From assembly GCA_947471565.1 (NCBI GenBank), contig CANIVT010000011.1:1-64000 (forward strand): a DNA stretch of 64,000 nucleotides, read 5' to 3'. This stretch comes from Spartobacteria bacterium (lineage in GTDB: Bacteria; Verrucomicrobiota; Verrucomicrobiia; Chthoniobacterales; UBA6821). A model generated the notes under the pieces. It saw nothing but the letters and a program-made list of their open reading frames with translations, ran no database searches and was not told where the DNA came from. Of this stretch, positions 1 to 18,740 are shown piece by piece (positions within the stretch are counted from its first letter, which is position 1; each line of letters starts with the position of its first letter). The translations under genes were made by a program, and so were the position numbers.

Positions 1-624
1 ATTGTGGAGGTTCCCTATCGCTCCAAGCTGATCGCCACCCAGCGGTGGGAGTGTCTGAAACAGTCGGGCTTTCACGGAGAGAGTCCGGAGATGTCGATTG
101 AAATTCCCTCCGCGAAGCAGGCCTCAGCAGTGGCCAAGGCAGGAGGCGAGGGTGGATGGATGCATGTGAGCCCCTTTACCACGGAGAACTACAAGGAACT
201 GCCCGAGGCCCAGTTGGTGGATCTACTGAACCAGTTGGACGGTCGTTTCGGCGCACAGAGGATCATCCTGAGTTGTTCGGCTAGCGCGCGGGAGAAGGCC
301 AAGATGCAGACGCTGTTGCCGCAATTGGATTTTAAGCCATGGCGGGTTTTTTCAGGGGAGCTCGATCTCCTCGAGTTAGCCGCGCTTGTGCAGCGGGCTG
401 CCGTCCATCTTGGTGGCGACTCCGGTGGTCTCCATGTGGCTTGGATGACGGGAGTGCCAACCGTGACGTGGTTCCGCGAGTATGAGGGAAGGCCCGACTG
501 GCAGCCCCTAGGCGATCGTCACCGATCCTTCGTGGGAGTGCGTCAGGAAAACGGAATCACCGGGATCGACAATGTGGAGATTCTCAGCGCGGTTGGGGTC
601 TTTCTGAATCAAGAGCGCTCATAG
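1..624 (+). CDS. Glycosyltransferase family 9 protein, C-terminal part
   Basis: The frame is open from the first base of the window, so the N-terminal part lies outside and the GTG at 4 is probably internal. The visible 207 residues match the C-terminal half of family 9 glycosyltransferases, the heptosyltransferase group, which transfer sugars such as heptose to lipopolysaccharide core at the inner membrane. The supporting motif is LGGDSGGLHVAWMTGVP at about residues 138-154, equivalent to the family's ND-SG-MH-A nucleotide-sugar binding segment. The acceptor and sugar cannot be told from this fragment. A second GT9 domain occurs in the fusion gene at 16800-18740. Confidence 0.8.
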   Translation: MVEVPYRSKLIATQRWECLKQSGFHGESPEMSIEIPSAKQASAVAKAGGEGGWMHVSPFTTENYKELPEAQLVDLLNQLDGRFGAQRIILSCSASAREKAKMQTLLPQLDFKPWRVFSGELDLLELAALVQRAAVHLGGDSGGLHVAWMTGVPTVTWFREYEGRPDWQPLGDRHRSFVGVRQENGITGIDNVEILSAVGVFLNQERS

Positions 625-16721: not shown

Positions 16722-16819
16722 GGTTTAGAAGGTGAAAATGTTAGAAAGGTTAAAAATGTTAAAAAGTGAGGAATGTAAAGAGGAGGACGTTGTAACGTTT
16801 CAACTTTTTAACGATTCAA
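16722..16819. repeat. Inverted pair of GTTAAAAA-type repeats
   Basis: Forward units run at 16722-16767 and reverse units at 16792-16819. GTTAAAAAGT at 16758-16767 and ACTTTTTAAC at 16803-16812 are perfect complements separated by 35 bases. The right arm overlaps the end of the fusion gene and supplies its stop codon. The element lies upstream of the ABC-F start and downstream of the fusion gene, so it might act as a transcript end or processing signal. Confidence 0.7.
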
Positions 16820-18740
16820 CCTCCCGCAGTGCTTCCTGCACTGCGGAAGCCACCATCTTCACGGTGATTTCGTTCATGCAGCGGAAGTCGATGGGGCAGG
16901 TGCGCAAGTAGCAGGGGCTGCACTCGACTTTCCGGCGAAGAATCCGGTGCGGGGGTGTGGTCTCCCCCACGGGGCCGGTAAGGGACGGTTCGGTGGAGCC
17001 AAAGATCGCAACGACCGGGATGCCGAGCAGATCACCCAGGTGCATGGTGCCGGTGTCGTTGGTCAGGAGAAGGTGACACTGCTTCAGTTCGGCGATGAGC
17101 TCCGGCAGGGTGGTCTTGCCACAGAGGTTCTCCACGTTGCCGGGGAAGTCTTTCGCGAGTTGCTCCCCCAGCGAGGCTTCTTTGGCCGTGCCGACGATGA
17201 CCCAGGTCAGGGTGTGTTCGGCGGCGATCTTCTCCATAACCGCGCGGTAACGCTCCAGGGGCCAGCGCTTGGCTGGACCATATTCCGCGCCGGGGCAGAG
17301 GCCGATCCGCAGTGGTCCCGGCGGCGTGGTGCGCACACGAGGTATCGGGAGGGCTGTCTCAGGACCGCCGAGACGGCGAACCGCAGAGAGCAGGGCCTGA
17401 GTCTGATGGATTGTGGGATGGAGTTGACGTGGAAGCGGAACGGTCCGGGTCAGGAGTCGTTTGGCCCGGTGCGTTTCGAGGGCAAGCCGCATCGGGATGC
17501 AGGCAAGCCAAACTTCCAGGGCGCTGCGCCACGAGTTGGGGAGCAGGAAGGCGACCTCGTATTCCCCGGATGCCTTGATCAGACGGGCAACCTTCCAGGG
17601 GGAGGAGTCGGGCGGGATTTCGAGGACGGAGGAGACCTCCTTCACCTCACGCCAGATGGGGGCGAGCTTGGAGGGTGAGAGGATGGTGATGTGCAGGTCG
17701 GGGCGACCCAGCTTCATTGCCTGAATCGCCGGCACCGCCATGCAGGCATCGCCGAGCCAGTTGGAGGAGCGGATGAGAATCCGGAATGGCTGAAGTTCGG
17801 AAGAATCCATCCCCGCCGGGAGATGAATGCCACGTTTGAAGTGAAGCAGGAGAAAATCAGGGACGAAATTTTTCCACCTGTTGTGAACCCAGAACCAGTC
17901 CGCCGGCGAGTGCCTGATCTCGGATTCAAGGAGATGACTGAGATCCATCGTGATCTCGGCAATGGTGCGGCCCTCGGTGGGCACCGGTTCGCTGGTTTTG
18001 ATCTCCCAGCGTGCCAACCCGATGGTCCTGACGCTCACCATGGCGAGAAGGGCTCCCGTGCGTTGGGCGAGGCTCGCCGCAAGAGGAGACGTGGAGGCGA
18101 TCTTTCCGAAGAGGGGCATCCAGATGCCTGCCCCGCCGGCATGCTGGTCGGTGAGGACACCCACAACGCCCCCTTTCTTGAGAAGGTCGCTCGCCCCCTG
18201 CATCCCCTTCTTCTTGTCGAACGTGAAGACGCCGCGACTGCGGCGGTCACGATTGACCAGATCGTCCATGAGTGGGTTGCGGATCGCTTGGTAGACACAG
18301 CCGGCCTTGCGCGGCTTCACGAATTCCGCGATCTGGGCGTTGATCTCCCAGTTGCCGTAATGACTGAGCGCGGCGACGGTGCCTCGTTCCCCGGTCTTTT
18401 GTCCGACGATCCAATCCTCCCAGGCCTGCTCGTTGTCAAAGCGGAGACGGGAGAGGAGCTTCTTCTCGCTGAGTGCCGGGATCTTGACGGAACAGAGGAG
18501 ATTTGCTCCGAGGCAGGCAAAGTGCTTTCGGACCAAGGTTGCGGCCTGCCTGTTGTCCAGTCCCTCACTCCCGCTCCCAAAGGCAATGCGGAGATTCCGT
18601 TTGGCGAGACGGCGGTAGCCGGGCAGAATCATCCAGATCACGAGTCCGATGAGCTGTCCCAGCACGAAGCAGACGGTGATGGGCAGCAATCGGATGAACG
18701 AGACCACCCCGAGAGCCAGCAGGTAAATCAGACGATCCAT
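16800..18740 (-). CDS. Fusion of LpxL/HtrB-like acyltransferase and heptosyltransferase (GT9)
   Basis: From the ATG at 18740 the product has 646 residues. I prefer this start because MDRLIYLLALGVVSFIRLLP matches the usual beginning of LpxL-type enzymes; longer starts run deeper into purK. Residues 1-310 carry an N-terminal membrane anchor and the acyltransferase motif HYGNWE (127-132). Residues about 319-646 are a WaaF-like GT9 domain beginning RILIRSSNWLGDACMAVPA, with TNDTGTMHLGDLLGIPV near the end and a cysteine-rich CSPCYLRTCP. One protein thus joins lipid A acylation and inner-core heptose transfer. The last residues SLKS and the stop derive from a repeat. Confidence 0.85.
   Translation of the reverse strand: MDRLIYLLALGVVSFIRLLPITVCFVLGQLIGLVIWMILPGYRRLAKRNLRIAFGSGSEGLDNRQAATLVRKHFACLGANLLCSVKIPALSEKKLLSRLRFDNEQAWEDWIVGQKTGERGTVAALSHYGNWEINAQIAEFVKPRKAGCVYQAIRNPLMDDLVNRDRRSRGVFTFDKKKGMQGASDLLKKGGVVGVLTDQHAGGAGIWMPLFGKIASTSPLAASLAQRTGALLAMVSVRTIGLARWEIKTSEPVPTEGRTIAEITMDLSHLLESEIRHSPADWFWVHNRWKNFVPDFLLLHFKRGIHLPAGMDSSELQPFRILIRSSNWLGDACMAVPAIQAMKLGRPDLHITILSPSKLAPIWREVKEVSSVLEIPPDSSPWKVARLIKASGEYEVAFLLPNSWRSALEVWLACIPMRLALETHRAKRLLTRTVPLPRQLHPTIHQTQALLSAVRRLGGPETALPIPRVRTTPPGPLRIGLCPGAEYGPAKRWPLERYRAVMEKIAAEHTLTWVIVGTAKEASLGEQLAKDFPGNVENLCGKTTLPELIAELKQCHLLLTNDTGTMHLGDLLGIPVVAIFGSTEPSLTGPVGETTPPHRILRRKVECSPCYLRTCPIDFRCMNEITVKMVASAVQEALREVESLKS

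Follow-up and report, generated by a model that had tools for sequence, protein, structure and literature searches.

The window, i.e., the whole stretch of DNA analysed here, consists of 64,000 nucleotides from a contig of a Spartobacteria bacterium, and carries on its reverse strand one open frame of 646 residues running from an ATG at position 18740 to a stop codon at 16800-16802 (Table 1). A preliminary description had recognized in this frame a single protein combining an acyltransferase and a heptosyltransferase domain, LpxL-like in its first half, where a HYGNWE motif occurs, and WaaF-like in its second half, with a junction free of frameshift or stop, and the present analysis agrees with it on all of these points. 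In the Pfam search of the 646-residue protein, PF03279 covers residues 6-290 (E 3.7e-36; 125.3 bits, above the gathering cut-off of 22.3) and PF01075 covers residues 391-616 (E 4.1e-32), the frame being unbroken between both domains. Among the NCBIfam models, TIGR02195 (heptosyltransferase II) matches residues 320-637 with 176.5 bits, above its curated cut-off of 134.6, whereas TIGR02193 (HepI) reaches 62 bits of 185.3. The LpxL-type models match the acyltransferase half, all below their curated cut-offs, e.g., the best of them, NF006270, with 115.7 bits of 248, and TIGR02207 with 78.7 bits of 297.8, so that this half is filed as LpxL-like and not as LpxL. Among solved structures, the sequence is nearest to E. 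coli WaaF (1psw), followed at a lower level by an acyltransferase from A. baumannii (5kn7). The start codons of the fusion gene and of a divergent purK gene share two bases (window 18739-18740). The divergent purK adjoins the fusion gene in many relatives, and no functional clue was found in the gene neighbourhood of the window organism and its relatives.

Table 1. Features of the fusion gene, with positions in the window
Feature	Position	Strand	Basis
Whole gene: LpxL-like acyltransferase and WaaF-type heptosyltransferase, 646 aa	16800..18740	-	Pfam/NCBIfam, conservation
Acyltransferase half, residues 1-290 (PF03279)	17871..18740	-	Pfam; model vs 5kn7 LpxM Z 26.6
HX4E catalytic motif HYGNWE, residues 127-132	18345..18362	-	Conservation; E. 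coli H132/E137 mutants (PMC6286764)
Inter-half linker, residues 291-318	17787..17870	-	Between PF03279 and TIGR02195 matches
GT9 N-lobe (acceptor side), residues 319-476	17313..17786	-	Model matches 1psw from residue 319
D331 (GT9 N-lobe), codon	17748-17750	-	
GT9 C-lobe (ADP-heptose side), residues 477-646	16803..17312	-	Pfam/NCBIfam; separate ORF in 5/6 sister-genus genomes
K491 (GT9 C-lobe), codon	17268-17270	-	
D562 (GT9 C-lobe), codon	17055-17057	-	

The AlphaFold2 model of the window protein was built from an alignment (A2) of 67 rows, P0001 and 66 others chosen from 126 listed rows, a pool from which Akkermansia, duplicates and three odd rows had been excluded; it displays a mean pLDDT of 94.1 and a pTM of 0.92. 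Its second half superposes on WaaF 1psw (Z 31.8, rmsd 2.7, 307 residues aligned) and its first half on LpxM 5kn7 (rmsd 3.9, 268 residues aligned). Residues H127, E132, R166 and D198 are invariant in A2. Over a larger set of 130 distinct fused rows, both H127 and E132 are kept in 129, the exception being a cut row, and D198 and Q199 in all 130. Mutation of the residues of E. coli LpxL that match the HX4E dyad is reported to lower the activity strongly (excerpts of PMC6286764), as is mutation of the E. coli WaaC residues that match the GT9 set (excerpts of PMC5713226). The window protein possesses D331, K491 and D562, which correspond to D13, K192 and D261 of E. coli WaaC, and its intact catalytic residues rule out a degenerate GT9 half. 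All four residues D331, K491, D562 and H567 occur in 114 of the 130 rows; the other 16 comprise nine Akkermansia rows, two short paralogues, four lobe-split forms and one row cut by a contig end. The complete set is also found in 17 of 20 rows added from other families of the class, the exceptions being two rows of the Akkermansia group and one short form. Two genomes (G053, G109) contain, besides a full fusion located elsewhere, a second fusion paralogue (L067, L068) made of the acyltransferase and the GT9 N-lobe only, which has lost the catalytic Asp. The GT9 half of the model is also matched by chains 7wff_a, 7f9o_6 and 9grx_1 of plant NDH-PSI supercomplexes (Z 19.7-21.0), which suggests that a heptosyltransferase-like subunit may be present in these supercomplexes.

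The genome of the window organism (2.28 Mb in 46 contigs, estimated 97% complete) contains two PF03279 matches, namely the fusion and a stand-alone LpxL-like gene located beside metG on contig C9, and three PF01075 matches, namely the fusion, a WaaC-like gene (TIGR02193 105.1 bits, under the cut-off) and a fragment at a contig end (window 4-624) whose nearest models are RfaQ/HepIII, with 33-34 bits. As neither of the two other GT9 matches looks like WaaF, one being closer to WaaC and the other to RfaQ, the PF01075 search of this genome, estimated 97% complete, yields no WaaF besides the fused copy; of the separate lpxL and waaF genes whose presence the preliminary description had left to be checked, a stand-alone LpxL-like gene thus exists and a separate waaF was not found. 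The lipid A and heptose pathways, whose absence would have spoken against the proposal, are represented by LpxC (E 5.0e-94) and by domain I of the heptose kinase HldE (340.5 bits, E 6.1e-102; the curated cut-off of 345 is narrowly missed).

Within the order (147 genomes, that of the window organism included), 123 genomes show the full-length fusion as a single match row, a full-length row being defined as extending from query residue 32 or earlier to residue 587 or later and counted by hand; six of these 123 rows contain one stop. In three other genomes (G036, G058, G086), two separate matches cover the two halves of a single frame, and the remaining 21 show contig-end breaks, partial or split forms, or no strong match, the latter in G037, G080, G085, G097, G106, G124 and G132 among the 147 genomes. 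The matches listed for 387 genomes of the phylum add full-length fusions from several other families of the class Verrucomicrobiia, and those lying outside the class are all stand-alone GT9 frames. In the best 80 loci of 514 relatives with public genomes, 79 are fused according to the profiles, Luteolibacter marinus being the only non-fused one. Holders of the fusion include Akkermansia muciniphila, Chthoniobacter flavus Ellin428, Brevifollis gellanilyticus NBRC 108608 and a Prosthecobacter MAG. As far as searched, the fusion belongs to this class and not to the PVC group at large; the domain order to be sought in other PVC genomes is shared by several families of the class. That two adjacent genes have been joined by an error of assembly or frame deserves virtually no credence: an unjoined arrangement does occur in the Akkermansia group, where the halves of G169 lie in overlapping separate frames, but the junction is conserved across the order and the joined form recurs in independent assemblies, including those of named strains such as Ellin428 and NBRC 108608, which refutes an assembly error at this place.

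Several loci call for a separate comment. The locus of G169 (L081) is split at the linker and not within the glycosyltransferase. In two 0.9-Mb single-contig genomes belonging to the order (G028 and G038; L037 and L038), the fusion is the only PF03279 protein. Large frames around stand-alone WaaF (L075, L076) were rejected as fusions, their N-terminal parts matching no Pfam family. The fusion on RFPR01000059.1 (L116), a MAG titled Proteobacteria bacterium, is identical to that of G003 from the genus of the window organism, and this title is probably wrong. Similarly, the loci L117, L136 and L144, from MAGs titled Akkermansia muciniphila, are only 27-29% identical to the query from Akkermansia and have their GT9 residues intact, and their names look wrong. 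A tree built from selected rows places the LpxL halves of the fusions apart from stand-alone LpxL (SH-aLRT 97), and in a second tree stand-alone WaaF falls between two clades of GT9 halves; both trees result from quick searches and contain long branches, and the fusion may have arisen once or twice. No paper describing a LpxL-WaaF fusion was found in a search confined to open-access papers.

Depending on the genome, the heptosyltransferase half occurs in distinct states, which track heptose synthesis as judged from HldE (scored by TIGR02198, a strong match being taken as E 1e-40 or better). HldE accompanies an intact or lobe-split GT9 half in all 19 genomes checked (G000, G001, G016, G018, G020, G028, G038, G203, G310, G328, G163, G183, G231, G270, G285, G313, G316, G434 and G460), and a short form with an N-lobe remnant in one of 17 (G408), the sixteen others being devoid of it (G189, G228, G282, G319, G356, G378, G381, G392, G400, G417, G431, G446, G454, G457, G465 and G512). 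It is also absent from G395, whose PF03279-type protein has no extension, and from five genomes without the fusion (G147, G218, G234, G345, G515). The decayed Akkermansia type is accompanied by HldE in five of six genomes (G166, G169, G195, G256 and G334, not G337). Throughout the order, HldE is found in 141 of the 147 genomes; against the trend, five of the six misses (G054, G075, G136, G137, G139) carry the fusion, four of these five being drafts less than 90% complete. The six short forms included in the LpxL tree constitute one group (SH-aLRT 87), so that the trend reflects few evolutionary events and not many. Three near-complete genomes of family f16 (G186, G198, G215) possess a stand-alone WaaF and no PF03279 match, HldE being present in G186, and their lipid A may be devoid of LpxL-type acylation.

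In the gut bacterium Akkermansia, the heptosyltransferase half has decayed: nine rows replace D331 by E, K491 by S or N and H567 by S or A, with D562 kept. The GT9 half of G256, from the Akkermansia group, scores 19 bits with TIGR02195 (cut-off 134.6), and the other GT9 gene of this genome is next to a gene for ADP-heptose epimerase (404.7 bits, cut-off 274.6). The Akkermansia half thus seems to be a non-catalytic pseudoenzyme, and its decay fits the inner core with one heptose reported for Akkermansia (excerpts of PMC13135019), i.e., the loss of the second transfer. Exactly one PF03279 match, at the fused locus, occurs in each of the 10 Akkermansia-group genomes examined, and therefore JFJHEM_01585 of A. 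muciniphila HW07, presented as a possible new acyltransferase with 23.7% identity to LpxL (PMC12527988), is probably the Akkermansia fusion protein; the excerpted account of this protein mentions neither a fusion nor a heptosyltransferase half.

Another state occurs in the sister genus g2. In five of its six genomes, the first frame stops after the GT9 N-lobe and the C-lobe is encoded by a second ORF of 184-237 residues, in which the conserved part begins near GAEYGPAKRWP. The split is due to an in-frame TAA in G021, whose acyltransferase part lies off the contig, and to a change of frame in G016, G017, G018 and G019; counted from the first stop, the first plausible starts are located at 22 (G016), 67 (G017), 161 (G018), -4 (G019) and 15 bases (G021). 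The sixth genome, G020, has both lobes joined by a long linker, and since it is closest to the split G017 and G018, either the split occurred twice or G020 has rejoined its lobes. A pseudogene as the cause of the split is disfavoured by the catalytic residues, kept on both ORFs, and by the dN/dS of the C-lobe ORFs (0.105/0.543, for the only pair well short of saturation). HldE is found in all six genomes, and we infer that g2 possesses a working two-chain heptosyltransferase, one lobe of which is carried by the acyltransferase.

In the short forms of a related clade, the donor-binding lobe has been lost and the acceptor-binding lobe kept. In a profile alignment (hhalign probability 92, E 6.7e-7), the extensions of 19 short forms fall on positions 11-158 of the GT9 half, which spans 342 positions. 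In the model of a short form, built from 18 sequences (pLDDT 85.8, pTM 0.84), the extension is folded into a Rossmann-like domain. Acyltransferases set aside, this domain is closest to 3tov, in the GT9 N-lobe (Z 10.9, rmsd 3.4, 138 residues aligned), followed by 1psw (Z 9.6) and WaaC 6dfe (Z 9.3), which are tied with other Rossmann folds. In the closest pair of short forms, dN/dS amounts to 0.067/0.296 for the extension and to 0.078/0.329 for the acyltransferase. Selection thus still acts on the remnant N-lobe after the loss of its partner, which suggests that this lobe serves the acyltransferase. Five genomes (G364, G395, G428, G449, G489) possess PF03279-type proteins with little or no extension and, if these are orthologues, the lobe is not always needed.

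For the window organism, the most probable reading, with a probability of about 0.7, is that of a bifunctional enzyme that would tie HepII transfer to the place where lipid A is acylated. Located at the inner membrane, the fused protein would acylate Kdo2-lipid IVA by its N-terminal half in the LpxL fashion, a separate WaaC-like enzyme would add the first heptose, and the C-terminal half would then transfer the second heptose from ADP-heptose in the WaaF fashion, the fusion holding the heptosyltransferase at the cytoplasmic face of the membrane, where lipid A is finished. Both activities, the exact substrates and the tethering are predicted from the sequence, and with this qualification the idea that lipid A acylation and inner-core heptose addition reside on one polypeptide is supported. 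The two halves had also been assigned to successive stages of LPS assembly, but their steps need not follow directly on each other, as in E. coli WaaC (HepI) acts between the LpxL and WaaF steps. The bifunctional reading has to accommodate the LpxL-type cut-offs, none of which is reached, the second LpxL-like gene of the genome, a WaaC-like gene under its own cut-off (105 of 185.3 bits), and the five fusion genomes of the order without a HldE match.

Two other explanations concern the GT9 half. It could use ADP-heptose at another step, HepI-like or for an outer-core heptose, in which case the fusion would not be of the LpxL-WaaF kind functionally. Such a role, which we regard as unlikely, would agree with the low score of the separate WaaC-like gene, and acceptor specificity is not given by sequence; it is opposed by the scores of the fused protein, above the cut-off for TIGR02195 and far below it for TIGR02193, and by Akkermansia, where one GT9 gene beside the ADP-heptose epimerase gene and a decayed fused half coincide with a single inner-core heptose (PMC13135019). 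It is still much less probable that the GT9 half of the window organism is already a non-catalytic structural or acceptor-binding part, as the Akkermansia versions and the single-lobe remnants of heptose-less relatives would suggest, because its catalytic residues are intact, as in most of the fused rows, and the only WaaF found in a genome with HldE is this fused copy.

In a further, tentative and rather doubtful reading, the lipid A acyltransferase would have taken over the acceptor-binding N-lobe of a heptosyltransferase for good, as a module recognizing Kdo/lipid A. In GT-B enzymes, the acceptor is bound by the N-lobe (excerpts of PMC5713226), and E. coli LpxL strongly prefers a Kdo-bearing lipid (excerpts of PMC6286764); the remnant lobe may play a role in Kdo recognition. 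If so, the N-lobe would be a subunit of the acyltransferase and not a leftover sequence, with four possible fates for the glycosyltransferase: active in the window organism, a pseudoenzyme in Akkermansia, a single lobe in the heptose-less relatives, and split in the sister genus, where the donor-binding lobe would dock from a second polypeptide.

The known enzymes of lipid A acylation are distinct from those that glycosylate the core, and here the two are joined in much of a bacterial class, the probiotic candidate Akkermansia muciniphila among its members. Since no PF03279 match other than the fused gene occurs in the Akkermansia-group genomes examined, a single gene, through its two halves, may account both for the acylation of lipid A and for the one-heptose core of this group. 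The graded series of active, pseudoenzyme, one-lobe and split forms offers a natural test of the retention of a lobe on an acyltransferase, and would allow the core heptose content to be predicted from sequence.

With respect to known systems, Alg13/Alg14 is a two-polypeptide GT-B glycosyltransferase, which g2, and not the window protein, resembles in having the two GT-B lobes on separate ORFs; it differs in belonging to another GT family, and the N-lobe of g2 is joined to a lipid A acyltransferase. The window protein shares with LpxL/LpxM (HtrB/MsbB, PF03279) the fold, the HX4E motif, the conserved R and D and the DQ motif, but stays below every LpxL-type equivalog cut-off and bears a second enzyme at its C-terminus. 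With WaaF (GT9, TIGR02195), it shares a score above the cut-off, the GT-B fold and the equivalents of D13, K192 and D261 of E. coli WaaC, but it is joined to an acyltransferase instead of being encoded by a free-standing gene.
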